From the NCBI RefSeq assembly GCF_014203095.1, contig NZ_JACHIG010000001.1, forward strand, positions 1,178,001-1,242,000: 64,000 nt of DNA. Direction: 5' to 3'. The stretch's first letter is position 1. The number at the start of each line of letters is the position of its first letter. A program made the position numbers and the translations under genes. The notes beneath the pieces are model-generated. The model was not told where the DNA came from and made no database searches. It saw only the letters and a program-made list of their open reading frames with translations. This stretch comes from Prosthecobacter vanneervenii (GTDB taxonomy: Bacteria > Verrucomicrobiota > Verrucomicrobiia > Verrucomicrobiales > Verrucomicrobiaceae). Below are positions 3,896-43,012 of this stretch, piece by piece.

Positions 3896-3961
3896 GTTTG
3901 TGTCAGAGAAAAGGGTTGGTGAATATGAAGAGGCTGAGTGGGTGTGTTCTTCAGAGGTGCA

Positions 3962-5511: not shown

Positions 5512-5755
5512 AACGTCGAGGGCAGTTGGTTGGGGGGCTTAGAAGCGGCACGGAGGCGCGCTTCTGGTTGTTCGCACCTTCCGGACGTTCAATCGCGGTG
5601 GGCTGTTTTAGGAGGTACCTCGATCTTTTCAACATAATTTTGGCAGGCTGATGCCAGAGGAGAAAAGCGGAAGTGACAATCCTGCCCGGGAAAAATTTTC
5701 AACGTGACGCCGCATCTGGAACACCTACAATCTGCGCCCCCAGACTCGAAAATTC

Positions 5756-18545: not shown

Positions 18546-18960
18546 CACGCAGGATCGGGACGATCGCTCTCCGCAATTCAGGGCGTTGCGCAAGCGTGAG
18601 GGATTGGGACTATCCCTCTGTGCCAGAGGCTTTGCCGCAGCGATGGAGGGGGATCATCTTGTCCCCCATCTGTCGCGGAATCGTGGATGAGCGATGGCGC
18701 TGGATAATGCGGGAGGTTCGGCTTTGTGAAGTCGTGAGAGCGCTTGACGGTGCGGGAGCGTTAGGGATCGGGACGATCCCTCTGCGCCGGAAGCTTTGCC
18801 GCAGAGACGGATGGGGATCATCTTGCCCCCATCTGTCGCGGAATCGTGGATGAGCGATGGCGCTGGATAATGCGGGAGGTTCGGCTTTGTGGAGCCACGA
18901 GAATTCAGTGCTTTGAGGGAGCGTGAGGGATCGAGACGATCCCTCTCCGCCAATCCGTGC
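18546..18960. repeat. Tandem 163/164-bp repeat with family-B palindromes
   Basis: The gap between two convergent genes contains three copies of a GGGATC..GATCCC stem-loop beginning near 18596, 18760 and 18923, so a 163-164 bp period. The 61-bp stretch starting at 18668 (atctgtcgcggaatcgtgg) recurs without change at 18831. A second stem-loop, GGGGGATCATCTTG..CCCCC, is in each unit. No gene is visible. The last palindrome lies 45 bp beyond the giant gene's stop and might also help end its transcript. Confidence 0.8.
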
Positions 18961-18994: not shown

Positions 18995-21900
18995 TCAGAT
19001 GCTGCTGCGACGACGACGGCGGCGGATGGCGATGCCGAGCAGACCGAACATGAGGAGAATCATGCGGGCAGGCTCAGGCACGACAACGAGAATGCCGTAG
19101 TTGTTGAAGAGGCTGGTGTCCCAGGTAAGACCGGCGCCGATGGAGTCGAGGACGAGGTTGTCTGTGACACTGAAGCTGCCGGAGCCCATGGCGGAGAGCG
19201 CGGTGCCATCCTTGATGCTGGCGGTGGACCAGTCGATGAGGTTGAAGATGCTGCCGTAGGTGGCTCCGGTGAGGTTGTTGGCAGAGACGTAGATGCGGGC
19301 GTCTGTGCCGGCGGAAGAGCCCAGCAGGATGGTGCCGGAAGCGGAGATGAAGTCGTGGCTGCCATCGTGGCCGTTGTTCCAGGTGGTGTTGGCGATGGTG
19401 CCGGTGCCGCCATTGAGGCTGGCCACATAGTCGGCAGCGGTGCCGCCGTTGGCATTGAACCATGCGACGAAGCCGCTGTCCACCGAGTCGGCGGTGGTCA
19501 GGCCGAGCTGGATCTGACCGCCATTGGCAACAGTGAGGGAGGTGCTGGCGGCGGTGAAGGTGAGCGTCTGGTTGCTGGTGGCGGGAGCACCGTTTCCAGG
19601 GGCAAGGAAGGCGCCGCTGCCGATGATGGTGGAGCCTGCGATGGTGCCGCTGCCGGAGAGAGTGGCGCCTGAGGCGACGGAAACGCCTCCCACGGAGCTG
19701 TTGATCGAACCACTGGTTCCATCACCAACCTGGAGAGTACCCGCGCTGACAGTCGTTGCACCCGTGTAGGTGTTATCGGCATTGAGGATCGTGGTGCCGG
19801 AACCGGTCTTGGTGAAGTTACCAGCTCCCGTGATGGCACTGCTGCTGAAGTTCGTGCCCTGGGTGACCGTGCCGCTTTGATTGACCACAAAGGTGGAACT
19901 TGCTGCGACGCTGATCGCGCTGCTGGCGCTCAAAGAACCGGCGCTGCCACCATTGCCAAGCTGCAAGGTGGAGCCGCCCGTCACACTGGTGTTTCCGGTG
20001 TAGGTGTTCGTGCCTGTCAGTGTCCAGGTGCTGCCGCCGCTGACCGTCAAACCACCGCTGCCTGTAGCAATGGCACTGCCAACGGAACCACTGCCAGAGC
20101 CTGTCAGGGTAAGGTTGAAGCCTGATCCGGTGATGGCGCCAGTGTTGGTGAGGTTCAGCGTGCCGGCATCTGCGGAGATGCTGGAGTCTGCGGCGAGGGT
20201 AATCAGACCACCGTAGTTGTTGATTCCGCCGACGTTGACGATGGCAGCATTCTGACCCGAAGCGCCCGGACCACTGATCGTAGTGGCCTCGTTTCCAACT
20301 GTGATGCCGCCCTGGATCTGCAAGGTGGCTCCGCTTGCCACCGTGGTGCCGGTGCCCGCCGTGCCGTCAGCCGAACCGAGCGCGGCAGCACTCTGGATGT
20401 TGAGGATGCCAGAATTGACCGCAGTGGCACCCGTGTAGGTGTTGACAGCGGTGAAGTTGAGAGTTCCCGTTCCGTTCTTCGTGACACCACCAGTGCCTGT
20501 GTTGATGGCACCGCTGATCGTGGTGCTGCCAGCACCATCAACCGTGAGATTAGAGCTGCCACTAACCGTACCGGAAACCGTCAGAGTGCTGGAGCTTGAA
20601 TTGTTCGTCCAGGTCTGGCTGGCCCCCAGGATGACACTCGCAGAAATCGTATTGTTACCAGAGCCAGATTGGACGGTGATGCCGGAGGCATTGATGGTCA
20701 GTGTGTTTGTCCCGGCACCCGACGCGATGGTCGAGCCGGCGGTATTGGCCGTGCCGGTGCCAGTGAAGACCAAGCCAGCGATGGAGAAGCTGCCGTCCAG
20801 TGTGGTGCTGAGGTTGGTGGCACTGTTTGCCGTCAAGTAAACGGTCGAGATCGAGCCTGGCAGCTGAAGCGGATCAGTGCCGGCAGGGCCGTTGAGCCAG
20901 TTGGTCTGGTTGCTCGGATTGAGGATGGTGCTCCAGCTTCCGTCACCGCGCGCACCACTCCAATAGGCTGCCGTCGGTGTGGCATTGGAGATAACACTCA
21001 GCTGCAGGGCCGTCGTGCCCGTGCCGCTGACGTCAAAGTTGCCACTGGTGGCAGCGCGTCCGGTGCTGGTGCCGCCGCTCCATGTCAAGTTGTAGCTACG
21101 GCCACCGCCGATCTGGACGACGTTGCCGCCAGCACCAAAGGTGAAGCTGCCGGTGCCTGCGCCGAAGGTGAAGCTTCCTGCGGATGTCGAGCCGGCCAGG
21201 AACGTGACCAAGTTGTAGGTCCCGTTGGCAAGCGTGGTACCGGAGATGGTGTTGAGGCCCACCGTCGCGCCGCCGGAGTTCAGGTTGAGCTTCTGCCCCA
21301 CGGAAATGAGGTCCGTGGTGTTTCCGGCCGCATTGACATCCAGCAGCAGCGAAGCGGCTCCGCCAACACTGAGAGTCAGGTTCGTTCCCGCGCTTGCATT
21401 GGCCAGGGTCAGCGTATTCACAGCCGAGTCCAGAAGGCTGAGAGTGGCGCCGGAGTTGACCGTCAAGCTGCCAGCAGTCGAGCTGCCAATCGTGGTGTTG
21501 CCGGAAATGTTCAAGGTGGCGCCGCTAGCGACCGTGACGGCTGTGCCGCCGAGCGTCGCGCTGCCGCTGCCCACGAGTTGCAGCGTGCCGTTGTTGATGA
21601 GCGTGTTGCCTGTGTAGTTGTTGTTACCCGAGAGGGTCAAGGTGCCGATACCCGATTTGGTCAGTGCCAATTTGCTGGAGGCATTGGCTACACTGTTGTC
21701 AGTCAGGACACCTCCAAAAGTGCTGTTCAGATTCGTTGTGGAATCCGTGGCCGCCGTGCCACCAATGACGAGCACCTGTGTCGAGGCGGCCGAATTGGTG
21801 ATGAAGCCCGTGCCGGTGAGCTGTTTGCTGATCTGGCCGAAGCCGTTCAGGTCATAACCGGCTCCAGCATTGATGGTGATCAGGCTGCTGTTGGCGATGG

Positions 21901-24900: not shown

Positions 24901-27900
24901 GTGTGAGCGGGTTGCTCGCGTTGGCGGTGAGATCGACACGACCGCCACCGTTGGTGATATTGAACGCGGTGATCTGCTCGGTGGTCGGCGTGGAAGCCGT
25001 GCCACTGCCACTGATGGAGAACGAGCCGCCATTGAGGTTGAGAGTGCCTGTGGCATTGAGGCCAAGACGGTTATTGATGTTGGTGGTGCTGTTGTCGAGC
25101 GCGAGGGTGCCGCCTTCATTGGCGGTGAACGTTCCGGCAAAGGCCGGAGCTGTCGTGCCGGTGAACCACTGGCCGCTGCCATCAAATACCAATCTGCCGC
25201 CACTGATGGTAACGGTGCCGGTGGATCCAGTGGAGGCGCTCTGAGCCCCCGTCATGCGAAGGGTGCCGGTGCCGATCTTCTGCAAGCCAACCGCGTTCAG
25301 CGTGGCGTCATTGAAGCGCTGAATCTGGCCTGAGAACACGGTGCTGGTGTTGTCAAAACCCACGGTGAGCGTTTGGGCTCCGGAGGAGTTGAAAATCGTG
25401 CCCGAGCCGGAAAGCGAACCCCAGGTCGTGCTGGCATTGTTCAAATCGTACCGGGTGCCGGAACCGAGGGTGAGCGCGGAGAATCGCGAGCCTGCGTTGG
25501 CCACGCCGTTCTGGATGCCTCCAGCGGTCACATTGAAGCTGCCGGTGAAGACGTTTTGGGCACCGAGCTGGAGGATGCCGTTGCCACTCTTGGTGATGCC
25601 GCCGGAGGAGCCGACGATGGCCCGGAGCAGGAAGGCGCGTTGCAGCGGAGCGATGTCGCTGGTGCCGTTGGCGTCAATAGTTCCAACACTGATCGTGTTT
25701 GGCGAGCTGCCAAAGTCCACACGCCCCTCGATCAAAGCAATGGTGCCTACGTTGGAAGATGTGGAGACAATACCCTGGCTGCCGATCGTCAGGACCCCTG
25801 TGGAACCGGCACCCGTGGCGGATGCGGTTGAGTATGTTGTGACCGTTGGATTACTGGTGCCGCCAATGTTGTTGAATACCAGACCTGCCACGGTGTTGTT
25901 TCCAAACAAGTTCAATGCTGAACCGCCATTGAGTGTGACCACGTTGCCGGAGTTGATCGAACCAGCTGCATTCAATGTCACCGTGGCATTGTTGATCACG
26001 AGACCATTCGCAGGAGTGCTGGCCAGCGGAATGGTGCCGGTGGCGAGCACATTCAAAGTGCCCTGATTGACGACCGTGCCACCACCGTAGGTATTCGTGC
26101 CGGCGATGTTCACCTGACCGGAGCCGCTCTTCACGAGTGCCACATTTGATCCAGTGATCACGCTGTTGATGATCTGCGGTCCCGTTCCCTGAGCATAGAC
26201 GAACAGTTCCGTGCCGCTGGTGGTGATGCTGCCTTGGTTGACAGCGCTGCCAATCGTCTGGCTGGCCGTGCTGAAGAAGAGCAGGCCGCCGCTGCTGAGG
26301 GTAAGCGTTCTGCCGGAAGCGATGTTCACCGTCTGCGCCGCAATGTTGCCGATGCGCAGGCTGTTGAGCGTCTTGTTATTGGACACCGTCAAGGTGTTGC
26401 CTGTCACCGCCACGTTAATGCTAATGTTGTCGGCCGTCGCAGCGGCGTCAATCGTGGTAGGCGTAGAGGTGGTGTTTGAATACTGCAAAGCTCCTGCCGT
26501 ACCCAGCGCAGCAACGCCCAGCCCGGGGACGTAAGTGGCAAAGTCACTGGTGCCGATGACTGCCCAGCCGCCGATGATATTGTTGGTCAGACCGGCAAAG
26601 GCCGTGCTGGTGGAAACTCCGTTGATCTGGTTGAGGATGACGCGGGCGCTGCTACCGATCTGGCCACCGGTTGCCGCAGTGAAGTTCACCGTGCCACCGC
26701 CAGTCGTGCGCACGAGGTTGCCGATGATGAGATCGGACGAGTTGATGCCTGTGCCGCCACCCACGACAGAGCTGATAAACGAGTTGCTCTGTGCCAAGGT
26801 CACTGTGCCGACCGTCTCCGAAGACGCCACCAGTGCACGCCCTTGAAGGGCAAGGGTGCCGCCGCGGAGATTGATGGCGGCTGCGTCATTGATGCGGTTG
26901 GTCAGATCGATTGTACCCGTGTTGTTGTCCGCAGTCAGAGTCGCGTAATTGATGTCGATCGAGGTGGTGTTAGCCAGAGTAGCATTGTCGCGCAGGGTGA
27001 TCGCGCCACCGTTGAGCAGCGTGGTGCCGGTGTAGGTCTGCGGCGAGTAGATGGTCAGCGTATTCTGGCCCGAACGGGTGAGGTTCACGCTGCCCGTGAC
27101 GGCTCCGGCCCAGTTGCGGGCGTTATTGTCCTGGTTGATGACCAGATTGCCAGTGCCGGTGTTGGACGTGATCGTGCCACCCGCTCCATTGACAGCGCCA
27201 TCGGTGAAGAGTGCGAGAACCTGCTGGCTGTTACCATTGAGGTCGAGCGTGCCACCATTGATCGCGATGAAGTTGTTGGCTTGAAGGGTGTTTTTGCCAC
27301 CATTCAGCACGAGGGTACCTTGGTTGATCACGAACTGACCCGACAGGCTGTTGACCCCCGTGGTGAGACCAGAGATCGAGGATTGTGGCGTGCTAAGGGT
27401 CAAGGTGCCAGCGCCGGCCTTGACGAAGCTGATGGCACCGTTGCTAGTGCCGTTGCCACCGGTCAGAAGGCTGGTGATGGTGAGAGAGGCTGTGCCGGGC
27501 GTCCAGATGTTGAACGGAGATGAGGTATTGACCTGATTCAAGACACCACCGCTGATGGTGGAAGATCCACTGGTCACCAGGATGCCGCCGCTGCTGCTGG
27601 TCAACTGGAGCAGCGATCCGATGGTGGCAGTGGAACCGCCTGACATCGTCAGCGAGTTGATGTTCAGCGTCGCCGCACCGGTGCTGGTGCTGCCGCTGGT
27701 CAGGTTGATATTGTTGCTGGCAGTGAAGGTGTTCGCCGTGTTGTATTCAGAAGCTGCGAGCGGACGCAGGTTTGCGGTGCCCGTGTCTGCCGTTGCAAAC
27801 GAAGTGCCGTTGCCCGTGGCGGTGGTGTCAACCAGTGCCCAGGGCAGGATGCCCTTGTTCGCGGTGCCCGCAGCACCCGTCTGGCCGTTGAAGGTAAAAC

Positions 27901-33900: not shown

Positions 33901-36900
33901 TCGCGTCAAAGGTGGGACTGCCGGCAAAGGAAATGTCGTTGCCGATGCTGAAGCTGCCCGCCGTGAGCATCGTGGTTCCTGCAGCCATTGCCACCGGACC
34001 AATACCGAGCGGACCGGAAACGACGGTGGCGGTGCTGTTCGTGCTGCTGGCACCGACGACGATGCCGCCGCTGGAGACTGTCAGGCCATTGAACACATTC
34101 TGGGCGCTCAGTTGCAGCAGGCCGGTTCCGGTCTTGGTAATAGACCCGGTGCCGGTGATGATGGAAGCAATCGAAAGCGTCGGCTGGATGCTGGTGTAAG
34201 TCTGCGCACCCACGGCGATGGGGGCGATATTGAAGGTGTTACTGGCCGAAGTGAGGGCGACAGTGCCGCCGGTAATGGTGGCCGTGCTGTTGGCATTGCT
34301 CGAGGTTGCGGTAACCGGACTGCTGCTTCCAAGAGTCAAGGTCCCCGTTACAGTCAGAGTCGGAGCAGCATCACCCCCGTTGTTGTTCAAGGTCACGCTG
34401 TTGAGAGTCTGGTTGACGCTGGCAGCGAAAGTGAGGCTGGCACGGCCATTCATCGTCAAATCCGTGGAGGCCGCGATGGCGTTGCTGGTATTCAGGTTGA
34501 CCGTGGTGCCCGTGCCCTGAACGCCGCCGTTGATGACAAAGCCGCCGCCAGGGATGACGACGTCGCCCGCGGTGGTGGGGCTGATGTTCAGCGTACCGCG
34601 GTTGACCACGGTGCCGAGGCTGTAGGTGTTCGGAGCGGTAAGGGTGAGGGTTCCAGCACCGTCCTTCACCAGCTTGGTGGCACCCTGAATGACCGAGTTG
34701 ATGGTGATTGTGTTCTGGTTGTTGTAGGTGATGAGCTCGCCAATGCCGCTGGTGAGCACGCCGCGGATGGCTGTGGTGCCGATGGTGGAGTTGACGGCAT
34801 TATCGCTCCTCAGCAGGCCACCGAGTTCGAGGTTCAGGATGTCCCCAGCGTTGGTAAAGGCGATGTCGTTGGTGAACGCACCGGCCAGGCGAAGGATGGC
34901 CGCATTGGTAGTACCAGGCGCGAGGGTGGTGGTGGTGGCGGCCACGGCCGGGATCTGCCACAGATTGCCACTGCCAGCGGAACCGTCATAACCAACGAAA
35001 CCGCCCTGGCCCACGACGCCGATGCCTTGGCCGGCATTGTAAGCGGCGTAGTCTGAGCTGTTGGCGATGGCCCATGCACCGATCATTCCACCATTGGTCG
35101 TGGCCAAGGGGGTCGTGAACAGAATGCGGGAGTTGTTACCCTGCTGACCGAGGTTGGTGCCGGTAAAGTTGACCGTGGAGTTGTTACTGCGTGTCAGGCT
35201 GGCAAATGTGATGTCCACAGAGGTGATGGTGCCGCCGCCGGTGTTGGCGGTGATGGTGTTGGCTCCTTGGGCCAAGGTGACAGCGCCGAAGGTCTCCGTG
35301 GCGGCCGTAGTCAGACGACCCGTGTAGGTTATGGAACCGCCGCGCAGCGTGATCGGGATGGTATCGCCGATGCGGTTGTTGTTCTGTGTCTGAAGGCTGT
35401 TGTTGTTGTTGAGCTGCAGGGCAGCGTAGTTGAGATCGATGGCCGAGGTATTGAGGAGAGTGGCATCATTCTCCAGGGCGAGGACACCACCCATCACCAG
35501 CGTGCTACCGGTGTAGGTCTGTGCCTGTTCGAGGGTGGTGGTCGTATTGCCCCCAGTCCTGACGAAGCTGAGGCCAGTGCCGCTAATGGTGCCGGCCCAG
35601 GTGGTGTTTCCGCTGCCCGCCACCAGCAGGCCTCCACCGGTGCTGCTGATGATGGTGCCACCCGTGCCAGGCAGCACCCCGGGAGAACCGAGGTTGCCCA
35701 CATACTGGATGCTGCCTTTCAGGTCGACCGTCGCGTTGCTGTCAATGTTGAGCCCGGCAATCCCCGGGAAGAGAGTGTTGTTGCCAGCATTCAGGATGAG
35801 AGTGCCTTCGTTGACGTTGGTGGTGCTGTTGTACCACTGCTTGGCAGAGAACTGCAGGGTGCCAGGCAGAGCTTTGGCTACGCTGCTGGCGGAGGTGATG
35901 GCACCCGTGATGTCCAGCGTGGTGCCGGTGGTTGTCTGAATAAAGGCATTAGCGCCGAGGTTCAGGCGCGGGACGCTGATGGTGTGGGTGAGACCACTAC
36001 CATCGGCGATGATGCCGCCGGATGTCAGGGTGAGAGTGAAATCCCCGGCTCCGCCCAGGACACCGATGTTGCGGGCGGTCGTGTCGGAGATGGAGAGCGC
36101 ATTCAGCGTTCTGGAGACGCTGATGTCATCCACCGTGTAGGAGCTGGTCACCTTCACCGTATCGGTGGCCAAGGCAGTGTTGATATCCGTTCCGGCAGCG
36201 TAACCGGAGAAGGCTACGATGCCATTGGTGCCGTTGTAGGTGGCGAAATCTGCGCCGCCGAGGAACACGCGTGCCGCGACGTTGTTGCTCAGATTGAGTC
36301 CCGTGCTGGTAGTAAACAGAATCTTGTTGTTCGAGCCGAGGCTGCCGACCTTCGCCAGGTTCAACGATGAACCAGAGTTGGCGAAGTTCACCGAGGCAAA
36401 GGTCAGCGTGTTGGCACCGGCAGAACCAGTGGTGTCAATGACCATGTCGATGCTGTTCACGGTCAGAGCGCCCGTGGTTTCCGTGGTGCCGTTGCCGATG
36501 AAGTTGAGGGTGCCACCGGTGGTGGTCACGGTGCCGGTGTCAAAGAGACGGTTATTGTTGTTGGTGCCGCCAGTGACATTGTCGATCACCAGGGTGCCAC
36601 CTGCAGTGATGGCGATGTTGCCAGCCCCCCACGCACCGCTGGCCCCGCTGAGAGTGGTGGTGCCGCGGCTGGCGGTGAGCGTACCGGTGGCCACGTTGGC
36701 AGCGGTCAGGGTGGTGGTGCCTGTGCCGGACATGGTGAGGCCGCTGGCCCCGGTGCCTGCGTTGTATACACCACTGATCAAGGTATTGCCCGCACCGAAG
36801 ATGGTCAGGGTAGAGGCTGCCGTGTTAGTGATGCCTGTCCCCGAGATGATCAGCTGGGCACCACTGGTGGTTTCGTTTTGCAGCGTACGGCTGGCTCCGA

Positions 36901-39900
36901 GCGCTACGCCGCCGCTGAACTCGATCGATTTGCTGCCGTCCACCTTGGGTGGGGAACCCCCAATGGTGACAGCGTTTGTAATGGCGTTACCACCAGTCAG
37001 GTTGGCAAGGTTCGGGCCAACACGCAGGGTGCCGCCGTTGAAAGCAAAGGTAGCCGTGCCACCGAAGGCCGCCGCTCCAAAAGCACCCACCTTGTCCACG
37101 ATAAGAATACCGTCTGAGAGCGTCGTCCCGCCAGTGTGGGTATTTGCGCTGGAGCCCGTCAGGGTGAAGCTGGCATTGGGGTCAATCGCGATGTTCAGCG
37201 CCGTGCGTGAGCCAGCAGTGCCGGTCGAGGTTGCGACGTTGCTGTTGTCGGCAATGACTCCGTTCCAGACCGTGGAGCCGTAACCGCGAATGTTGAGAAT
37301 GCGGGTGGAGATTGCGGTCGGGTTTTCGAGGCTGACGTAGTTGCCACTGAAGGTTAGCAGAGCGCCGACTTCCAAGTTGTTGCTGATGGTCTGGTCGTTG
37401 GCACCAGCGGCCTTGGTGACGGTCGCATTGAAGGTTATGGCATTGCGGCCAGCAAAAACGGCGGCTGAGTTATTCGCCAGCGTCAGGGGAGCCGTTGTCG
37501 TCAGCGCGCCGCCATAGGCGAAGATGCCAGCATTGCTGAGGGTGATGCCCGAGGCCGAGCCAATGCCGTTGGAGGTGAGTCCCAAGTTGCCACCACCGAC
37601 GCTAATAGCGCCAGTGAAGGTGTTGCTGGAGGCCGGGTTCAGAATCCAGGTGCCGCCATCATTTTTGGCAACTGAGAGCTGGTTCGGGGAGGTCGCATTG
37701 GTGCTGTCAGTCAGCACGAGGTTCATCATATTGTTGTCGGTGTTCGAACCGCGAAGGTCCAGAACGACGACACGCGCGACTGTGTCACCACGAGTGGTGT
37801 TTGCGAAAGTTCCGGTGTTCCAGACGAGAGCGCCTGAACCAGATGAGTCGATGCGGAAGTTTCGGTTGGTAGTGAAACTGGCGCTGGCCTGGAGGGTGAG
37901 GTTTCTGCTGGCTGTTTCGCCTGAGCCAACATAGATCAGAGGGTTCAAGTCAGAGTCGCCGGGGTTGAAAATGAAAGTCCCCGAGGTCCCGGTGCCGGAG
38001 CCCAGAGAACTGGCTGAACCATCGCCTCCGATGGAGGAAACCACCAAGCTGCCGGACGTGACCGTGGTGGTGCCCACGTAGGTGTTGGCGTTCCCAAGGA
38101 TGAGGACACCACCACCTGCCTTGGTCAGCGTGCCGCCGGAGCCACCACTGATGACGCCGGAGAGGATGCCCGCAGTCACCATGGCACCTGTGTTGCCGTT
38201 ATTGTTGACCGTGACGGTGCGCGCAGCCGTGCCGAGGTTGATGGCGTTGGTGAGTTCCGTTTCACCGAGGGCGGTGGAGGAACCGAGGACGAGAGAGGTT
38301 GCAGGATTGAAACTGCCCGAACCCCAAGTAAGGGCTGCGCCGCTGCTCAGATTCACCACCAGACGGCTGGTCGTGCCTGCGGCAAAGCCGGTGTTTCCAG
38401 CCGTCAGCTGCACCTGACCGGCACCCGTGCCCAACGTCCGGGCGAAAGTGGTGCCTGCCACTTCATAAACACCGCCGCTCAAAGTGAGATTGCTTGTGGA
38501 AGTAACGCCCACACCTTCGACCGCACGAAGCTGACCACCGCTGATGGTCGTGACGCCCGTGTAGGTGTTCGCCACGGCAGGATTCAAAATCCACAGACCG
38601 CCGCTGACGGTCAAGGCGGTGGCAGTGGAATCCAGCGTGTTGTTGGTGATGCGGGGGCGGAAGATGTTGTCGCCGATGGATGTGCCGCCGAGGGTCAGTG
38701 TCTTGGCACCGTTGGTGACGAAGGCGATGTCGCCTGTGTTGCTCCAGATGATGCTGGCGTTGTTGGCACCGGTGCCAGCCGCAGCGGACTCGTTGCCGTA
38801 GGTGCCGGAGGACTGGATGGTGGCGTTGCCTGCGAGAGAGAAAAGGCGGTCTGTGCTGATGGACGGGGACTGGGTGGTCTGGTAGATGCCGCCACCCGTA
38901 GTGGCACTGGCTGCGGCCGCACCGGTGTAAGTCAGCGTTCCGCCGTTGAAGATGAGATTGGAGGCCGCGTTGGAGGAAGCGCCGAGACCGCTGGCCAGGC
39001 CACCATCTGCCAGACGAGTGACGGCGAGGTTGCCGGTGTTGATGACAGTGACTCCCGTATAAGACTGCGCGCCAAGGATAGCCTGAGAGCGAGCGCTGGT
39101 GCCGTTGATGATGACGTTCAGCTTGCCCGCACCGTCCTGAAGCGTGCCGCCGAAGGTGGTGGTTCCCGTCGTGGCGGTGCCGCCGAGGGAGATGGATGAC
39201 TGGGTGTTGGCACCTGCGCCGGAATTGGTGATGAGGCCTGTACCGGTGAGTGCACCGATACTGATCTGAGCGTAGCTGGGGCCGCCTGTGTAAAGGGCAG
39301 TCGAAGCACCAGCCGCGTTGATGTCAAGAATAGCGCCCTGGCGGATCGCGGTCTGATTGCCTGCCGTGGAGAGCACACCGAGCGCGGCCGTGGAACCGGA
39401 CATCTGGATGGCCCCCTGATTGATGGTGGTGTTGCCGGTGTAGGCGTTGTTGCCAAAAAGAATCAACGTGCCGGTGCCCGCCTTGGTGAGCGCACCCGCG
39501 CCGCTGCTGATGGTCGTGCCGGACGATGCAGAACCAATGCTCAAGGCATTGCCCGTGGTGAGCGCAGCACCCGAGGAGGGTGCCACCGCCGGCGATGAGC
39601 CATTGGTGATAACAACCAACTCCTGGGCCGCTGTGCCGAGCGCAAAAGCACCCGTGATGGAGGCGGAGCCGGCGGAGTTGTCAAACAAGATGCCGCCCGG
39701 ATTGGTGGAGAAGCTGAGGCTTTGATTCAAAGTCAATGCTGCGCCACCGGTGAGTTTCAGGCTGTTGACCGTTGCGGCGACTGCTGTCGTGCTGGCTGCA
39801 CCGGAGATGGAGTAGTTCAAAGTGCTGGTCGGCGCGAGGGAACCTGACCAAGCTGTATAGCCGGTGTATTGGCTGACAGTAGCACCGCTGCTGACCCAGT

Positions 39901-42808
39901 CCAGCCCGTTGAATGTGGCGTAGCCACTCTGGATGCCGTTGGTACCGGCCGGGGCGGTGCCGTTAAAGTTGATGGTGCCGATGCCGGGCTGGTAGTCGAG
40001 CGTGGCACCCGCCCCACGGGTTCCGATGTCCAGGAAGGTCAGGGTGTCAGCTCCCGTGCCGTTGGTGATCGAAATCACGCCGTGGCCAGCGGTAGGAACG
40101 AGGCGGCCCAGAACTTCCGTGCTGCTTCCAGTGGCAAAGCCCACGTAATTGAACGTGCCGCCTGCGTTGCCCATGAGGGTCACGCTGTCGGTGTTGAAGA
40201 TGAGGTTGCTGGTGGAGTTGATGATATCGCTGGTGGCGGTGGCCGAGTTGGCGCGGAAAATGCCGTTGGTGATGGTGAGGTTGCCACCAAAGTTGATGCT
40301 CAATTGAGGGGTGATAACTTCCCCACTCAGCACGGCACCCGCCGCAAGGCTAGCCCCAGTGCCGCTCACGAGAGTAACGGTGGTGGCAGAGGTAATGTCA
40401 CGAATATACCAGTTCTGAGATGCCGGGAGGTTGGTGCTGGTGACCTTCTGGCCAGGAACCAAGTTCACGGTGCTGGCCACCGTAATCACCGGATTGGTGG
40501 TGCCCGTGCTGGCCGCCGTGGTGGTCAGGGCGGTGGTGATGCCATTGGCAGTTCCTATTGCAGCGGCTCCGGCAGCCGTGTTTGCTGCGCGGCTGGATGA
40601 CAGGATCAAGGTCGTCCCGTCAAGAATTTGCGTGATAGTTGCACCAAACGAAATGCCTGCGCCCGAAATAGGCTGCCCGACAAACAAACCCGCCGTTGAG
40701 CCAGAAGCGAGTGTAACGGTAGTGCTGGCTGTCGCGCCAGTGGCTGCAAGATTGATGGTGCTTGAAGTGCCATAGTTCGTAGGCGCTGCGATCTCCCATG
40801 TATCAGTGCCGAATTTCAGCACGTTGGTCAGGTTGACCCCATTGGTGATCAATCCGCTGACTTGGTTGACTATGGATGCAGGAGCGCTGCCCCCGAGGTT
40901 GAGTGTTTTCGCCGCAGTGTTGGTCACTGCAAAGTTATTTGGCAGGATTAACGCGGTCGGAGCGGAGCCGGACTGATCAGCCAGAATGTAGGAGTTCGCA
41001 TTATTGAGGTCAGCGATTTTGTTTGTCCATGTTTCTCCCGCCCCTGTGCCTTCTACGCCGATGAAACTCAACGCCCCACCGCCAAAGACGACACGACCCG
41101 CACTCGTGGAGGTCGGATTGAGAGCATTGATGCTCCTGATGACAAGAGTACCGTCGTTGGCATTGGCATTGCCAGTAAAGGTGGAGGTGGTGGCCGCTGT
41201 AGAGCCGAGGGTGAAAGTTCCGCTGCCTGACTTGGTCAACACGTTGGCCGAACCACTGGCAACAACCGCGCCCGTGATAATTGTTTCACCGCCGCCTGTT
41301 ACTGTGTAGGTGCTCGCTGTGCCAGCGTTGGCATTCCACACATTGCCACCGGTGAGCGTGACAGTGCCGCTGGAGTTGTTTGTCACTGTGATGCCACGGT
41401 AATCGCCAGCTGTGGGTGTGGCGCTGGTAAAGGAGATATTGTAACCATTGCGCCCGTTGATGGTGAAGTTTGCGGCATTCGCTCCCGTGTCACGGATCAA
41501 CGCACCCATCGCCAACGTCTGGTTTTGCAGAGAGGAACCAATGCTGAGACTGCCGGTGATGTCATGATCGATGAAAAATGTACCGGTGGTATTATTGCGC
41601 ACCCTGGCTGTGCGACCCGCGAAACCCGCCACAGCATCCGTTCGAATTTCGATGGTGCCGTTGTTCAAGTCGATCTGGCCGGTGCCCGTGTTCTGCCCCA
41701 ACGCCCCGCCCGTCTGCACACGCACGGTGCCACTGTCAATGCGCACCGCCTGGGCAAAATTGTTATTCGCATTTTGCAGCCACATCGTGGTGCTGACCAA
41801 GTTGCCGGTCTTGACAAAGCGGTCATTAGCAACCTCGGTCCCTGTTACCTGCCCGGAGATGATCCAGTTGCCGTTGCCGTAGAATAGCTGGGCATTGCCG
41901 GTGCCAAGGTTTACGGTGCCGCTGACCGTCGTGGCGCCGTGCGTGGCCCAGGCACGTGCTTCCGTGGCAACTGAGCCCAGGGTGATGCCTCCCGCGAGCG
42001 TATTGTAGCCAATGCTCACCAAGGAACCCGTGGAATTAGACGCACCCGGCCCACGGCCAGAAATGCTGACCTCGCGGCCCAGGCTGATACTGCCGGTGGT
42101 GACACCCGCACCATTGCCAGTGCCTTGGAGGATGAGCGCGCCACCCGTAAAGCCGGGGTTGCCGGTATTGGCAATGCCGGTGACGGAGATGGCATTGCCA
42201 GTGAGGCTGCCGAGCTGGTTGGCATTGGTGATGACCACATTACCACCTTTAATGGCTACGTCCCCGGAGAGGGTGGCCGAGTTGTCAGCCGAGAGGCGCA
42301 AGGTGCCGTTACCCGTCTTGGTGAAACCAGAGGTACCCGCGATCGTGGACGAGATGGTGGTGCCGTTGGTTCCAAAGCCATTGTTGTTCACGGCAATCAC
42401 TGGAGAGGTGAGGCCGGTGGAAGGTGTCAGCGTCAGGGTGCTGCCGGAGAGAGAATAACCACCGACATTAAGAGTCAGACCGCCGACGGTGATGGGAGCA
42501 CCCAGCGTGACGGTGCCAGCGGCACCTGCAAAAACAGCGGTGTCTGTAGGTGAAGTGGCGTTGGCCCACGCACCATCCGTTGAAACACCATCCCACCAAA
42601 AAGAACTGGTCGTGTTCCAGGTGCCAGTTCCTCCCAAGCCTGCGCCAGTCGAAGCGTTGTTGCCGGCAGCAGTGCCATCAGGATCCCAATAAAATGTGGC
42701 TCCTTGGACCTGCCCGGCCCAAAAAGGAAACAGCACAGTCAACACAAGTGTGACCGGACGCGTGACGTGACGGCGCAGGCGGTCAAAAAGAGGGCTGGAT
42801 TTCTTCAT
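18995..42808 (-). CDS. Giant beta-strand-repeat surface protein with PEP-CTERM anchor (7,937 aa)
   Basis: One uninterrupted frame of 23.8 kb. Residues 1-36 form a signal peptide (basic start, hydrophobic core 18-30, predicted cut after VQG). A W-rich segment follows (TFYWDPDG, GTWNTTSSFWWDG). Nearly all the rest consists of autotransporter-associated beta-strand repeats (PATR family), recognisable by 'G.GTLTL.G.NTYTG.T.VN.GTL'-like units, predicted to fold as a long parallel beta-helix. Composition is dominated by Gly, Thr, Ser, Asn and Ala; I noticed no cysteine. Residues about 2084-7000 contain four diverged higher-order units. The protein ends in VPEPARMILLMFGLLGIAIRR plus arginines, a PEP-CTERM signal, not an autotransporter barrel. 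PEP-CTERM proteins are processed by exosortases (none in this window). Likely role: very long adhesin or matrix fibre; the function is inference. Convergent with polysaccharide genes. Confidence 0.93.
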   Translation of the reverse strand: MKKSSPLFDRLRRHVTRPVTLVLTVLFPFWAGQVQGATFYWDPDGTAAGNNASTGAGLGGTGTWNTTSSFWWDGVSTDGAWANATSPTDTAVFAGAAGTVTLGAPITVGGLTLNVGGYSLSGSTLTLTPSTGLTSPVIAVNNNGFGTNGTTISSTIAGTSGFTKTGNGTLRLSADNSATLSGDVAIKGGNVVITNANQLGSLTGNAISVTGIANTGNPGFTGGALILQGTGNGAGVTTGSISLGREVSISGRGPGASNSTGSLVSIGYNTLAGGITLGSVATEARAWATHGATTVSGTVNLGTGNAQLFYGNGNWIISGQVTGTEVANDRFVKTGNLVSTTMWLQNANNNFAQAVRIDSGTVRVQTGGALGQNTGTGQIDLNNGTIEIRTDAVAGFAGRTARVRNNTTGTFFIDHDITGSLSIGSSLQNQTLAMGALIRDTGANAANFTINGRNGYNISFTSATPTAGDYRGITVTNNSSGTVTLTGGNVWNANAGTASTYTVTGGGETIITGAVVASGSANVLTKSGSGTFTLGSTAATTSTFTGNANANDGTLVIRSINALNPTSTSAGRVVFGGGALSFIGVEGTGAGETWTNKIADLNNANSYILADQSGSAPTALILPNNFAVTNTAAKTLNLGGSAPASIVNQVSGLITNGVNLTNVLKFGTDTWEIAAPTNYGTSSTINLAATGATASTTVTLASGSTAGLFVGQPISGAGISFGATITQILDGTTLILSSSRAANTAAGAAAIGTANGITTALTTTAASTGTTNPVITVASTVNLVPGQKVTSTNLPASQNWYIRDITSATTVTLVSGTGASLAAGAVLSGEVITPQLSINFGGNLTITNGIFRANSATATSDIINSTSNLIFNTDSVTLMGNAGGTFNYVGFATGSSTEVLGRLVPTAGHGVISITNGTGADTLTFLDIGTRGAGATLDYQPGIGTINFNGTAPAGTNGIQSGYATFNGLDWVSSGATVSQYTGYTAWSGSLAPTSTLNYSISGAASTTAVAATVNSLKLTGGAALTLNQSLSFSTNPGGILFDNSAGSASITGAFALGTAAQELVVITNGSSPAVAPSSGAALTTGNALSIGSASSGTTISSGAGALTKAGTGTLILFGNNAYTGNTTINQGAIQMSGSTAALGVLSTAGNQTAIRQGAILDINAAGASTALYTGGPSYAQISIGALTGTGLITNSGAGANTQSSISLGGTATTGTTTFGGTLQDGAGKLNVIINGTSARSQAILGAQSYTGVTVINTGNLAVTRLADGGLASGLGASSNAASNLIFNGGTLTYTGAAAASATTGGGIYQTTQSPSISTDRLFSLAGNATIQSSGTYGNESAAAGTGANNASIIWSNTGDIAFVTNGAKTLTLGGTSIGDNIFRPRITNNTLDSTATALTVSGGLWILNPAVANTYTGVTTISGGQLRAVEGVGVTSTSNLTLSGGVYEVAGTTFARTLGTGAGQVQLTAGNTGFAAGTTSRLVVNLSSGAALTWGSGSFNPATSLVLGSSTALGETELTNAINLGTAARTVTVNNNGNTGAMVTAGILSGVISGGSGGTLTKAGGGVLILGNANTYVGTTTVTSGSLVVSSIGGDGSASSLGSGTGTSGTFIFNPGDSDLNPLIYVGSGETASRNLTLQASASFTTNRNFRIDSSGSGALVWNTGTFANTTRGDTVARVVVLDLRGSNTDNNMMNLVLTDSTNATSPNQLSVAKNDGGTWILNPASSNTFTGAISVGGGNLGLTSNGIGSASGITLSNAGIFAYGGALTTTAPLTLANNSAAVFAGRNAITFNATVTKAAGANDQTISNNLEVGALLTFSGNYVSLENPTAISTRILNIRGYGSTVWNGVIADNSNVATSTGTAGSRTALNIAIDPNASFTLTGSSANTHTGGTTLSDGILIVDKVGAFGAAAFGGTATFAFNGGTLRVGPNLANLTGGNAITNAVTIGGSPPKVDGSKSIEFSGGVALGASRTLQNETTSGAQLIISGTGITNTAASTLTIFGAGNTLISGVYNAGTGASGLTMSGTGTTTLTAANVATGTLTASRGTTTLSGASGAWGAGNIAITAGGTLVIDNVTGGTNNNNRLFDTGTVTTTGGTLNFIGNGTTETTGALTVNSIDMVIDTTGSAGANTLTFASVNFANSGSSLNLAKVGSLGSNNKILFTTSTGLNLSNNVAARVFLGGADFATYNGTNGIVAFSGYAAGTDINTALATDTVKVTSSYTVDDISVSRTLNALSISDTTARNIGVLGGAGDFTLTLTSGGIIADGSGLTHTISVPRLNLGANAFIQTTTGTTLDITGAITSASSVAKALPGTLQFSAKQWYNSTTNVNEGTLILNAGNNTLFPGIAGLNIDSNATVDLKGSIQYVGNLGSPGVLPGTGGTIISSTGGGLLVAGSGNTTWAGTISGTGLSFVRTGGNTTTTLEQAQTYTGSTLVMGGVLALENDATLLNTSAIDLNYAALQLNNNNSLQTQNNNRIGDTIPITLRGGSITYTGRLTTAATETFGAVTLAQGANTITANTGGGTITSVDITFASLTRSNNSTVNFTGTNLGQQGNNSRILFTTPLATTNGGMIGAWAIANSSDYAAYNAGQGIGVVGQGGFVGYDGSAGSGNLWQIPAVAATTTTLAPGTTNAAILRLAGAFTNDIAFTNAGDILNLELGGLLRSDNAVNSTIGTTAIRGVLTSGIGELITYNNQNTITINSVIQGATKLVKDGAGTLTLTAPNTYSLGTVVNRGTLNISPTTAGDVVIPGGGFVINGGVQGTGTTVNLNTSNAIAASTDLTMNGRASLTFAASVNQTLNSVTLNNNGGDAAPTLTVTGTLTLGSSSPVTATSSNANSTATITGGTVALTSASNTFNIAPIAVGAQTYTSIQPTLSIASIITGTGSITKTGTGLLQLSAQNVFNGLTVSSGGIVVGASSTNSTATVVSGPLGIGPVAMAAGTTMLTAGSFSIGNDISFAGSPTFDATAITAWTLTLTGNLTGAGLSGGTPTINVINPGTTVALLGNLPAASSYTKTGLGTLIFNATNYTGNFNATALGNSNLVTLIHDGDRTGSVQTLALGSVIFDSGIVPSITLNRGGSLPFPTASNKILAPSSISNLGLGLTVTTNSGYGLQVSDAIAFTATPTYNVSGTQASNVTQGLYLTGNLTGTGFNKTGSGTMVIANATPSNNTFSGNININQGTVAVNADAQLGNSGNFIVLSPTTGTSAFRATDNITTSRVIQLANTANTRAIEVTNGKTLQLNAAFDLNGGTGATASLNKQDLGTLVINASNSGWSGNVNIVQGAILVNNPALTSPLGTGTISVSPSAGVVGAALQLAGGVTVNNALNLQATANTLSAGINFQGVLDNVSDTNTYAGGIAVPFDSTIGARAGSTLNITGLITVTGTRRLQFNAEGDINATGGQSGAMFGFDKYGSGTLTITTALFGGTITTGGVKVEKGTLVLSGAGTTNSSGAVNIVYQGATMRLDNSGTNTSNRLTARALTLQGGTFDFIANNSTETAGAFVADQGANTINNGGTGSSALTFSTFAGNAGGTLNVTGTFGTATNFLKFTTAPTLTPANTGILNRVTVNGNELATYSASLGVIPFTGYASATNILSATATQTFKATSSTLNSLTGNQTLNALTINNTAAVGGLGGLNPATLTLTSGTIMANGTGGAFLNTPIVSLGAEGLVYVQSGQSLTVNSGMTGTAGLTKSLPGTLNINAQQFVSGTTYINSGSVVLTSTGITNPMLYNQSLAVNFGGTLDLNGNNQFVGGLSSASAGGGNGISGGTVTNNASSQAILTVNGNTNFAGVISGNIYLNKTGTGALNLQSAQTYTGPTLITGGTLTLNDNGALPNTSQPIYINYGGLTLANGNLYNVNNRVNDSAPITMAGGTLSYSGRQQLNSTETLGAITLTEGFNFISAATGGTNVNSAILTLASLSRSAGSAATLRFNGSSNSLGAIGSTPNVLITSAPTLTNNIIGAWAIVDREWASYDSTYGVGQLNQNGFAGYSALGLLSNPTATDNVRFTAAGTTTLVANTTVNTLNFASQTAATVLNLGGNTLTVQGGGILFAQATDNVDFSILNGTITGPSGGGDLYLTHANYGGTNRTVTLNAPIADNSGAIRVIFTSGQVEAAGVGNTIINSVNTYTGGTVINSGNIVLGATGQMGTGGLTVNQAIFTQTAGGIIPSSNTLTLGGASLVNLAGNNTLAGIIVNNLGGSAPTVNPTGVLTLTGGISSTSVNAGNAAVIGTGTIDLNGAASYSINVGATLVNGVQVAPWGADLTINSAIQNGGIVKSGNGILQLGSTASTFTGGVTVNSGGIIIGASSSPSTYSGIPGTGTVVTNGPLGTGTLTLANNVSVVSTAANAVANALTILDSANSTGPGSGTGSTIFNGTNNITFNGVTTLPETWNATVTAPQMTVIIADASPSDSSAIINKYGLGTLSVGNFGGTLNAAGGLIFTADGNTLGTNESLSVGANLNVTSDVSVTVNRSGSAPLARNKNIQQGNLTNNGSILAVQNLNGYGVEFTGTTTLSGASHMSVATATASNVVQGLTLSGVVSDVGGYTLVKSGAGTLALTNSGNTFGGTGATIDILNGIVAVNSDGALGNINNSITLDVDGTTGVGLRATGTFSTARSIILNALNNAMEVTAGNTLTLNTPFSLAAGTGVTFTKNDNGILAINASNSTWTGAITINAGAIQLQNSNALGSGAVTISPAVGAALQLAGGVTYSNPITFGVTGMTGINSGGVIQAVSGTSTFAGLITQTSGNSITIGADPSATLNITGGIATVNSTTFNVGAGGTINLSTVAYGNGAATGNNFIKIGAGSMVVSVASPAASASAIVVSAGTLTFNGAGLIGTGTTANALVDVGATLTLNNSATLTANRLGGSGRTLQLRGGNFNLIGNASNTTEALGAPTFSRGYSVVTVTADPAGQANLTFGAAANNVAPAQNATTGPSGASVLFRGSSLGSAAGAGVATIANSTGGFTFNGQTGAAGTANKGILPWALVDTTATGNGTSFATADTGTANLRPLAASEYNTANTFTASNNINLTSGSTSTGAATLNINSLTMSGGSTATIGSLLQLTSSSGGILVTSGSSTISGGVLNQVNTSSPFNIWTPGTASLTITSLLTGGNGTSNGAISFVKAGAGTLTLSTPQSSISGLTTGVNSLSGQFVINQGTLVLNGGKNTLQANNFIAINGGTLDLNGNSQQVLALFTDGAVNGAGGTITSNTGTGNLVINQDNNARNWAGAVTGSVNLTRSGQNTLTIYSPQTYTGTTLLNGGAITLRDNATLANTTSIDINYATLTADNNTGTIDLTNRINDAAAINLRGGTLALQGRALVASSETVGTVTLAQSNSFISSVVGGGTGINSSDLIIGNLVRTTGGGTVNFTAATGGQIGSSARVILNQINGVSTSTAFAGLTNNIIGGWAVIGTSDFATYVPGLGVAALGTAGALQYSNTTSTPTTIDAAATADNISINVAVTGNTLTVSNNKTLNSLRIGNIAAQTVNIASGRTLTLSSGGLLFFSTASQTIGSAVNQGSITTSGTELFVYAQGTGPQIINSVITGSNVALVKSGSGQVNIAGTNTYGGGTVVNQGTLNVLATGTIPLASTPANGLVINNATVTLNAAGSINSGNVVTLNGGSALNLFGNNTVAGLVFNNIGGTSNPTVTTYSTASATGAGSTGVLTIGSQGIVSTSSNVGTIALIEGRVDFGSSPNTISVGTIDANGTSDIAPLQRAFLLRAIVGSSGGITKSGNGILQLGAQNVFTGSFNVTAGGIQNGVANAGSRFSALTLGSGTRYDLNNASTTWGSLSGSGTIFNSSGAQTLTVGFDNTSTVFSGQIQRFNDATLNAVGLQKIGTGTLRMTGAQSASTGSTGTVTISGGRLVFDGSGQWFTGTTAPAFAGTFTANEGGTLALDNSTTNINNRLGLNATGTLNLNGGSFSISGSGTASTPTTEQITAFNITNGGGRVDLTANASNPLTLTITTLSSLNSQGSAVFTGITGAASSSGVANLVITTPNLSGSQGGGANGTTTMSIRSDSLADPTVGGNGVGFLVKDSVTNNWRALGVASNGSAAPAEYLTTSNTATALAWGATNNVGVSGSQSIFANTPANTLTFLANGTIQSGLNATAFGNYGPGGGLLTMNLSNATALLVQAGFTASINVGNFAATTAGTTPNIHVVAGATLNINGAFNIGGTAGLLKSDGGTLNLNGQAYFTGGNTTVNDGTLNLNSGSDNTLAVVPGATTPTVNALNVNGTTAVVDLNGRNQAVGVIQGVNPLPGMAGTVRNTGAAATLTSTGGGTFSGSITGNIAFTRAGNNTTLLTSTNTYNGATIVRGGTLQLRDSGTISSTAGLTLNYGTLNWDNYGLNPSATPPTRIAAANPVTLQGGTFTINGAGSVDTVVTLSSVTVTGGGNTINTLPYISQGSTVSLTISNLVRNASTRSGVNFNGFTTNNSSAGSNTLGGQGLNTNSNIFLTQLNGTAFSSANLVNGIIGGWAVADGSTFATYSDTFGVVAMGNTYGGFSSTAFTGTDISAATVATGNYNDGTSRTLTTGVKAANSWRLAPGAAQTITPVSGTSWTFGTGIITNANQSITIGAVDATNTLSGTGSDLYFYINQNTTVINAAITGSSSLISNGGATLRLSPQFASNTYTGGTFINAGTTNLQAAAGLVAIPGDLTINNASVVLGNATTGQIASSSNININGGGSLTLFNYTTGATQTLASVNFNNQGGTANPTFAFGTPTTSASTIILTAANAITSTNDSLATTPVFTTGAGTLTNLQLSNAAPVITTSGLSPNSLNIQVVISSAGGAITKSGAGSLTLSGANTFTNGFNLNQGTLIFGAATAGTPPAITSGPVGTGTLTIAGGTTIMSDGTVRSIGNATTINGDFTVGGLVSGNGVTLTGAMNLGAAMRTITVLSPAATLSINSAITTTVASTTGLTKAGAGILTIGVAQTDAAFGGTGTTAGITIAGGILKNGVANAIANSSLITINAGAGYDLNGFGQISKQLTGTGFITNSAASTQVLVIGGTAATDSTTNLNSTFGGVLTDNSVANASSKLALTKSGIGTLTLSGNNNYTGNTLINNGTLQLVGSGSATLGGTAVTVASGATLNISGNTTIGSSTAGSLTVNSGATLSLLDSAVNTLTLANASAGTNLTLSVGGAASLLLDVNAAGNTTDLISVGQKLNLNSGGATVGLNTISGTTLANGTYNLVTFLAGSTSAGSFTFGAGTGSFTFGAGGNVVQIGGGRSYNLTWSGGTSTGRAATSGNFDVSGTGTTALQLSVISNATPTAAYWSGARGDGSWSTILNPSNQTNWLNGPAGTDPLQLPGSISTVYLTANSATNLSTTLDGSFSIAGLVFTGTGTANTAGSTIASGAGTNTLTINASGITVQSGSGNNTISASVILGASQTWTNNSSSSTLTVSGTVSGSSNLTVDGAGSTTISGAINTGTGGVTKNGTGTLNFTAVNTYTGATAVNSGILNIQSAAALGSADGTAGTGTTVASGATLQIQGGITVGNEATTISGPGASGQNAAIVNVGGINNYGGLITLAADSSISADAGTLNLTNTGAITGSGFNLTLTGSGSGSVGSAIATGSGGLTVSGGSTWTLTGTNTYTGNTSVTGGSTLQLGNGGSAGSLSASSAISVAASSTFVVNQSGTVTQGTNFSSSAITGAGNFTKTGSGTTILNADNTYTGATTVSAGTLQVGDGTSGSINSSVGGVSVASGATLSGSGTIAGSTIIGSGAFLAPGNGAPATSNQTLTFTAASTSLTVANGGQIQLGLTTADSVDSGFVAWFNANGGTAADYVASLNGGTGTIANTTWNNGHDGSHDFISASGTILLGSSAGTDARIYVSANNLTGATYGSIFNLIDWSTASIKDGTALSAMGSGSFSVTDNLVLDSIGAGLTWDTSLFNNYGILVVVPEPARMILLMFGLLGIAIRRRRRRSSI
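18998..19081 (-). other. PEP-CTERM sorting signal of the giant protein
   Basis: The last 28 residues contain the VPEP motif, a hydrophobic helix (MILLMFGLLGIAI) and a run of six arginines before SSI. This is the standard three-part PEP-CTERM signal recognised by exosortase-type enzymes. Confidence 0.93.
21800..25079 (-). repeat. Giant protein, higher-order unit U4 (approximate ends)
   Basis: The unit starts at the anchor 'NNRLGLNATG' (about 25070), then carries a beta anchor near 24690 and the alpha anchor 'IIGGWAV..STFATY' near 23365. It continues through 'VNFNNQGGTANPTF' to 'AGYDLNGFG' near 21850. It is the most diverged copy. Boundaries are estimates from hand-matched anchors. Confidence 0.6.
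25080..28209 (-). repeat. Giant protein, higher-order unit U3, shortened (approximate ends)
   Basis: The unit starts at 'NRLGGSGRTLQLRGG' (about 28205), with a beta anchor 'GILPWALVD' near 27845 and the alpha anchor 'IIGGWAVIGTSDFATY' near 26570. It is about 3.13 kb, roughly 1.04 kb shorter than U1 and U2. The missing part lies after the alpha anchor, where U1 and U2 carry 'VAVN.D..LGN' and 'ALQLAGGV'. Confidence 0.65.
28210..32379 (-). repeat. Giant protein, higher-order unit U2 (approximate ends)
   Basis: The unit starts at 'NRLTARALTLQGGTFDF' (about 32373), with a beta anchor 'NELATYSASLGVIPFTGY' near 32110 and the alpha anchor 'NNIIGAWAIVDREWASY' near 30910. It then has 'GIVAVNSDGALGN' and 'GAALQLAGGV', which match U1 segment by segment. 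Length is about 4.17 kb. Confidence 0.7.
32380..36560 (-). repeat. Giant protein, higher-order unit U1 (approximate ends)
   Basis: The unit starts at 'NNNRLFDTGTVTTTGG' (about 36550), with a beta anchor 'ADFATYNGTNGIVAFSGY' near 36265 and the alpha anchor 'GMIGAWAIANSSDYAAY' near 35080. It then has 'TVAVNADAQLGN' and 'GAALQLAGGV'. Length is about 4.18 kb. Anchors are shared with U2 at the same spacing. Confidence 0.7.
42701..42808 (-). other. Signal peptide of the giant protein
   Basis: MKKSSPLFDRLRRHVTRPV is a basic n-region, followed by the hydrophobic core TLVLTVLFPFW and a predicted signal peptidase I site after residue 36 (VQG, before ATFYW). It is a Sec-type signal. Confidence 0.8.
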
Positions 42809-42874: not shown

Positions 42875-43012
42875 TCAAGAAAGAGAGCTGGCGTTATCAT
42901 CATCTGATAGCACGGCAGCCGCCTGAATCGGCTGTCCCACCAGGCATGACAGTAGCATATGAATCGGCAACGAGCCGACGTGCTGGCGAAGCGAACGCAG
43001 ATGCTTAGACAT
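42875..43012 (-). CDS. Candidate 45-residue ORF just upstream of the giant gene
   Basis: The ORF runs ATG (43012) to TGA (42875-42877), with AAGGA five bases before the start. The product begins MSKHLRSLRQHVGSLP, then a hydrophobic stretch (IHMLLSCLVGQPIQAAAVLS), then an acidic tail. The 'LR..LR.HV....' start and following hydrophobic core and Q-A-A resemble the signal peptide of the giant protein (FDRLRRHVTRP...GQVQGA). It ends 66 bp before the giant gene start on the same strand. It may be a truncated duplicate of that 5' end, a leader peptide, or chance; I cannot decide. Confidence 0.35.
   Translation of the reverse strand: MSKHLRSLRQHVGSLPIHMLLSCLVGQPIQAAAVLSDDDNASSLS

Follow-up and report, generated by a model that had tools for sequence, protein, structure and literature searches.

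The window, i.e., the whole 64,000-nt stretch of Prosthecobacter DNA analyzed here, carries a giant open reading frame (ORF) that is a real protein-coding gene and very probably not an assembly artifact. Its 7,937-aa product contains autotransporter-associated beta-strand repeats (PATR) and a PEP-CTERM tail, and belongs to a conserved subfamily with four related superunits that seems to be unreported. We consider it on balance probable that the protein is an exosortase-sorted single-chain beta-solenoid fiber, most likely a surface adhesin or coat fiber. The features are listed in Table 1.

Table 1. Features of the giant gene, its upstream region, and barrel-ended PATR proteins of the same genome
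Feature	Position	Strand	Evidence or remark
Giant PATR/PEP-CTERM gene, 7,937 aa	18995..42808	minus	ORF scan; PF12951, TIGR02601, TIGR02595; six full-length relatives
Probable Sec signal peptide, aa 1–37	42698..42808	minus	By eye: basic n-region, hydrophobic core, cleavage after QGA
N-terminal region, aa 38–2059, beta-strand repeats	36632..42697	minus	Moderate conservation; ortholog identity about 26–63% per 200-aa block
Superunit 1, aa 2060–3450 (shared core 2306–2743)	32459..36631	minus	Fragment self-BLAST, alignment, HMM
Superunit 2, aa 3451–4850 (shared core 3691–4146)	28259..32458	minus	Self-BLAST, alignment, HMM; AlphaFold, aa 3456–4500
Superunit 3, aa 4922–5955 (shared core 5124–5587)	24944..28045	minus	Fragment self-BLAST, alignment, HMM
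Superunit 4, aa 5956–7007 (shared core 6183–6653)	21788..24943	minus	Fragment self-BLAST, alignment, HMM
C-terminal region, aa 7008–7909	19082..21787	minus	Strongest PATR hits; least conserved, partly absent in orthologs
PEP-CTERM tail, aa 7910–7937 (VPEPARMILLMFGLLGIAIRRRRRRSSI)	18998..19081	minus	TIGR02595, 25.6 bits; most sister giants with similar tail
Relic (45 codons) of the signal peptide of another giant	42875..43012	minus	Same frame, ending 66 nt before the present start
PATR proteins with barrel-like C-termini	G000:C21:20625-37211; G000:C8:324841-335951		

The ORF scan and translation gave an ATG start, a single terminal stop, and no internal stops, which confirmed the unbroken frame from signal peptide to PEP-CTERM tail described in the initial annotation. 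The probability of 7,937 open codons arising by chance is about 1e-110 under a random model with 60% GC. The GC3 of the gene is 0.67–0.78, and the codon-position GC is steady from end to end. Threonine, glycine, alanine, serine, and asparagine account for 63% of the residues (threonine, serine, and asparagine together for about 36%), and there is no cysteine among the 7,937 residues.

The N-terminus (MKKSSPLFDRLRRHVTRPVTLVLTVLFPFWAGQVQGA, with the putative cleavage site before TFYW) was judged by eye to have the look of a Sec signal peptide, and the N-termini of the sister giants are similar to it. At the C-terminus, the PEP motif, the hydrophobic helix, and the arginine cluster are all present. 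The tail passes the cut-off of the NCBI model TIGR02595 (16 bits), whereas its score with Pfam PF07589 (17.3 bits) is slightly below the cut-off of 20.7. The two halves of the protein scored 72.6 and 107.9 bits with PF12951 (cut-off 27) and 84.1 and 132.7 bits with TIGR02601 (cut-off 19.85). Both the repeat type and the two terminal signals named in the initial annotation were thus upheld. That annotation had also named a repeat profile failing to match the bulk of the protein as a refutation, and such a failure was indeed observed: TIGR02601 recognized 31 stretches, each about 32 aa long, which cover only about 13% of the giant. Coverage of the bulk of the protein is not part of the family definition. 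A locally iterated repeat model covered 8%. The same coverage in the other PATR proteins of the genome is 3–16%, with one at 20%. The low coverage leaves the beta-solenoid reading standing, because it is typical of the class and because structure prediction supports a solenoid. In Pfam, no domain besides PATR and PEP-CTERM was found in the giant at E values up to 1, and NCBIfam likewise gave no barrel or catalytic family. The absences at this threshold include an autotransporter barrel, a two-partner-secretion domain, and any catalytic domain; no recognized adhesin or ligand domain was found either. An autotransporter with a concealed barrel was rejected for lack of a barrel match in the Pfam scan.

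Fragment self-BLAST revealed off-diagonal self-matches with consistent offsets (about 1,390, 1,450, and 1,057 residues). These correspond to four tandem superunits (aa 2060–7007), each of about 1,050–1,400 residues and 31–39% identical in pairwise comparison; superunit 3 is devoid of the end extension of about 350 aa that is present in superunits 1 and 2. An HMM built from the shared core of about 450 aa detected four strong copies in the window giant, in the sister giants of 8,399, 8,721, and 10,192 aa, and in the 14,367-aa and 11,956-aa giants of two congeners; the 11,633-aa sister giant has three strong copies and a weak one. In a maximum-likelihood tree, the copies clustered by position and not by protein: the position labels required 11 changes, compared to 15.5 ± 1.4 after shuffling (0 of 500 shuffles were as low), while the protein labels required 19 changes, compared to 19.1, which corresponds to a random distribution. 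The four-copy array is therefore ancient and older than the gene duplications, and the position clustering ruled out a recent repeat expansion within each gene. Four superunit matches were also seen in a 17,232-aa open frame (G287:C2:18283-42426) in a 2.3 Mb genome from another family of the class.

Superunit 2 (aa 3456–4500) was modeled with AlphaFold using an alignment of the four window copies only. The model is all-beta, with a pLDDT of about 70–91 over two long stretches and a strand every ~7 residues, hence ~21 residues per rung. A Foldseek search with this model ranked the autotransporter passengers EspC, EspP, and antigen 43 (Ag43) at the top, above PL6 lyases among the low-ranked matches; all matches were weak, with a best E of 5.5e-3 and TM values of about 0.3 or less. 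The profile comparison additionally pointed to fusolisin (6e-4) and IcsA (9e-3). Because the fold matches are weak, the solenoid reading leans on the local pLDDT, the strand spacing, and the sequence class, and the giant is predicted to fold as a beta-solenoid like the autotransporter passengers. Beta-solenoids rise 0.48 nm per rung; at ~21 residues per rung, the length of the full chain would not exceed about 180 nm. The initial annotation had proposed a very long beta-helix of hundreds of nanometers: a long beta-helix is indeed predicted, but the proposed length is not. For the C-terminal region, single-sequence AlphaFold gave a poor model (pLDDT 46.7) in which strands recur regularly around aa 7368–7738, and a fold search from it returned nothing informative. 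The superunit cores contain an invariant IG[AG]WA motif with A and Y after it (about aa 2576, 3964, 5411, and 6481), located at the edge of the low-confidence stretch that divides the solenoid of each superunit into two parts.

Ortholog candidates were found with a profile of the superunit core. Full-length collinear relatives are present in six genomes (8,016, 7,482, 7,500, 8,104, 7,663, and 9,957 aa), the 7,663-aa ortholog being from a different family of the same order. They are 50–53% identical to the window giant over about 7,000–7,500 residues and end in PEP-CTERM; the best long paralog matches of the window giant in its own genome reach at most about 44% identity. A scan of named genomes gave distant PATR proteins and nothing closer. 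In the pair G019/G046, the closest at 79% identity, the dN/dS was about 0.08 overall and 0.03–0.15 in every block, values that are only approximate because dS is near saturation. Together with the six collinear relatives, these low ratios indicate purifying selection along the whole length, in agreement with the selection presumed earlier. Conservation peaks in the superunit region, and the PATR-richest C-terminal region, partly missing in the relatives, is the most variable.

Trees built from successive segments of the gene contradict one another, and the conflicts are strongly supported. The partner of the window protein is G005 at aa 3000–3800 (100/100), G002 at aa 5700–6500 (100/99) and 6500–7000 (98/99), and G067, which is from another family, at aa 1200–2060 (95/98); at aa 6500–7000 even the G019/G046 pair is split. 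Since the segments have different, strongly supported nearest relatives, the gene is a recombination mosaic. G002 is a near relative (its aminotransferase is 90% identical), yet its giant is no closer than the other-family protein, and the overall distances of the giants thus depart from kinship. The simplest reading of these trees would be repeated intragenic recombination between alleles and paralogs. The 45-codon relic upstream of the gene has a good ribosome-binding site and is similar to the N-terminal end of the G002 ortholog, with 44% across 45 columns (E 1e-4); it is probably a fossil of the replacement of the 5' end by recombination.

The giant gene is preceded by an upstream region of its own (1.2 kb) and is convergent with a Wzy_C-TPR gene. 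The genes that flank it were found in the relatives either on different contigs or 1.1 Mb from each other, and neither was next to a giant, so the locus is a lineage-specific junction that offers no operon clue. A functional connection of the giant with its neighbors, the Wzy_C-TPR O-antigen ligase and the aminotransferase, was rejected on the same grounds. Between the giant and the Wzy_C gene, there is a 163-nt tandem repeat (about three copies, window positions 18552–18952) with the palindrome GGATCGGGACGATCC; 53 related matches are scattered genome-wide, so it is a dispersed intergenic repeat.

The same genome contains further ORFs of the class with 11,633, 10,192, 8,721, 8,479, 8,399, and 5,528 aa, in addition to at least about twelve smaller members. 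With the window gene counted, seven ORFs exceed 5,000 aa; they occupy about 183 kb (2.7% of the genome), and a very similar VPEP[ASG]R tail is found on six of them. TIGR02601 was present in all 24 genus genomes searched, with ORFs up to at least 14,657 aa among the matches listed. The rarity claimed for such proteins in the initial annotation therefore does not hold, and the many paralogs ruled out a single unusual gene; what was described as one gene is a single intact gene but is one of at least seven giants in the genome. The 10,192-aa giant (G000:C9:247127-277705) lies at a conserved site shared with G001 and G008, with FtsH-like and 911-aa genes beside it. The giants at this site have 10,192 aa in the host and 14,367 and 11,956 aa in the two congeners, so one conserved place holds giants with lengths ~4,000 residues apart. 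Barrel-like C-termini without PEP-CTERM were observed in the C21 gene (5,528 aa) and two C8 genes (2,067 and 1,499 aa); with both kinds of ending in one genome, proteins of this repeat class seem to be anchored in two different ways within a cell. The host genome also has tandem BtubA/BtubB tubulin genes (G000:C6:287318-289125), its BtubB matching the solved BtubB over the full length (E 1e-254), and a tandem bacterial tubulin pair is present in four of the six sampled congeners. Bacterial tubulins of this type are the hallmark of Prosthecobacter, so the host almost certainly belongs to this genus.

Four PF09721 matches in the host genome represent exosortase homologs: XrtZ scored 643.6 bits against a cut-off of 475, TIGR02602 was over its cut-off twice, and the XrtU C-domain was also over its cut-off. 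The signal peptide, the PEP-CTERM tail, and these four homologs make an exosortase-sorted surface fiber the best explanation. The N-terminal signal peptide would direct Sec export, and most of the chain is predicted to fold as a beta-solenoid with ~21 residues per rung, the four superunits forming a conserved shaft. Judging from the co-occurrence of domain and enzyme, the PEP-CTERM helix and the arginine cluster may retain the giant until an exosortase of the genome cleaves and transfers it. The protein would then pass to the outer surface and become attached to the envelope or exopolysaccharide. The shaft may bind or shield, and recombination would swap its segments, whose mosaicism is evident, between alleles and species. 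Surface location, outer-membrane passage, exosortase cleavage, and a ligand are all putative. Segment exchange would fit the expectation for exposed surface proteins.

Alternatively, the giant may be a periplasmic or prostheca-internal structural rod that is anchored in the inner membrane via the PEP-CTERM helix and never exposed. The C-terminal helix and the arginine cluster would anchor it there, no outer-membrane export device is encoded beside the giant gene, and Prosthecobacter is a stalked genus. We nevertheless regard such a rod as unlikely, given that the predicted length of ~180 nm fits the periplasm poorly unless the rod is laid along the cell, that segment shuffling is more typical of exposed proteins, and that other PEP-CTERM proteins have been seen in outer-membrane fractions of Akkermansia (PMC4960237). 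A type V-like passenger leaving by a separate pore in the outer membrane (cryptic autotransporter or two-partner route), with no exosortase sorting, would suit the passenger-type repeat and the barrel-like ends of the sister genes C21 and C8, but the giant contains neither a barrel nor a two-partner-secretion domain, and both it and its relatives end in PEP-CTERM, making this route quite improbable.

The suggestion made for Omnitrophota of degradative or predatory proteins, here with catalytic sites in the beta-helix, draws on the giant genes common in PVC bacteria, which have been interpreted as weapons on the surface or as resembling cellulosomes (PMC12057145), and on the PL6 lyases in the fold search. 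The lack of a catalytic domain at E values up to 1 and the ranking of passengers over lyases render it very improbable for the window giant. An assembly artifact or a decaying run of merged genes might be suspected in a repeat-rich class and a draft genome (6.66 Mb, 33 contigs). However, the gene contains no exact DNA repeat of ≥22 nt, and the six collinear relatives of similar length come from independent assemblies; an artifact is unlikely for these two reasons. In addition, purifying selection appears to extend over the full length, and giants of the class also occur in the single-contig genomes G078 (6,874 aa) and G085 (5,502 aa). We consequently give this explanation hardly any credence.

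The components of this system are already known: PATR, PEP-CTERM/exosortase (PMC1569441, PMC4960237), PVC giants (PMC11573180, PMC12057145), and the mosaic giants of lactobacilli (PMC12863079). With PATR proteins (PF12951, TIGR02601), the giant shares many repeats over the cut-off and a predicted passenger-type beta-solenoid; unlike them, it has no autotransporter barrel, the repeat models cover ~13% of it, and its conserved part is the four-superunit array and not the PATR-richest region. The signal peptide, PEP motif, hydrophobic helix, arginine cluster, and genome exosortases are shared with PEP-CTERM/exosortase substrates (TIGR02595), of which 65 were described in Verrucomicrobium spinosum (Haft et al. 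2006, PMC1569441); the giant differs in its exceptional length, and its own cleavage is putative. Antigen 43 (self-associating) and EspP and EspC (serine-protease), the best though weak fold matches, are autotransporter passengers, whereas the giant has no barrel and no protease domain and is many times longer. Giant1–5 of Apilactobacillus kunkeei (PMC12863079) are likewise very long extracellular proteins, partly beta-solenoid, several per genome, and mosaics of intragenic recombination. In contrast to our giant, they are Gram-positive proteins with other repeats and anchoring and a solenoid at the N-terminus only, and the abstract on them describes no four-superunit array. Periscope proteins (PMC9704523) are also long single-chain surface rods in which length could matter, but their tandem repeats are highly identical and variable in number, while the giant keeps four units that are 31–39% identical. 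The PVC giant genes share superphylum and size class with our gene, and the two papers on them (PMC11573180, PMC12057145) do not mention PEP-CTERM or autotransporter-type giants.

The literature searched yielded nothing on Prosthecobacter with PEP-CTERM, and neither the fixed four-superunit architecture nor its orthogroup nor its mosaicism was found there; relative to that literature, these three are new. The undescribed surface system proposed in the initial annotation thus stands only weakly, as a subfamily absent from that literature, and its parts are known.

We tentatively propose, as a possibility still open to considerable doubt, that Verrucomicrobiota possess, in the giants with four superunits, a separate class of variable surface fibers, in which an ancient array of fixed number trades segments between paralogs, species, and families, giving each strain a mosaic coat displayed by exosortase with no outer-membrane barrel. 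Giant bacterial genes are often suspected to be annotation artifacts; here, end-to-end conservation, purifying selection, and a repeatable plan are seen. With a conserved and selected giant in a culturable genus, the surface role of very long solenoids and the outer-membrane crossing of a giant PEP-CTERM protein become testable. Among Gram-negative bacteria, the mosaic giant would be a counterpart of the giant surface proteins that recombine in the lactobacilli of honeybees, and, if our proposal is true, a strain-specific mosaic coat may serve, for example, in kin contact, attachment, or phage evasion.
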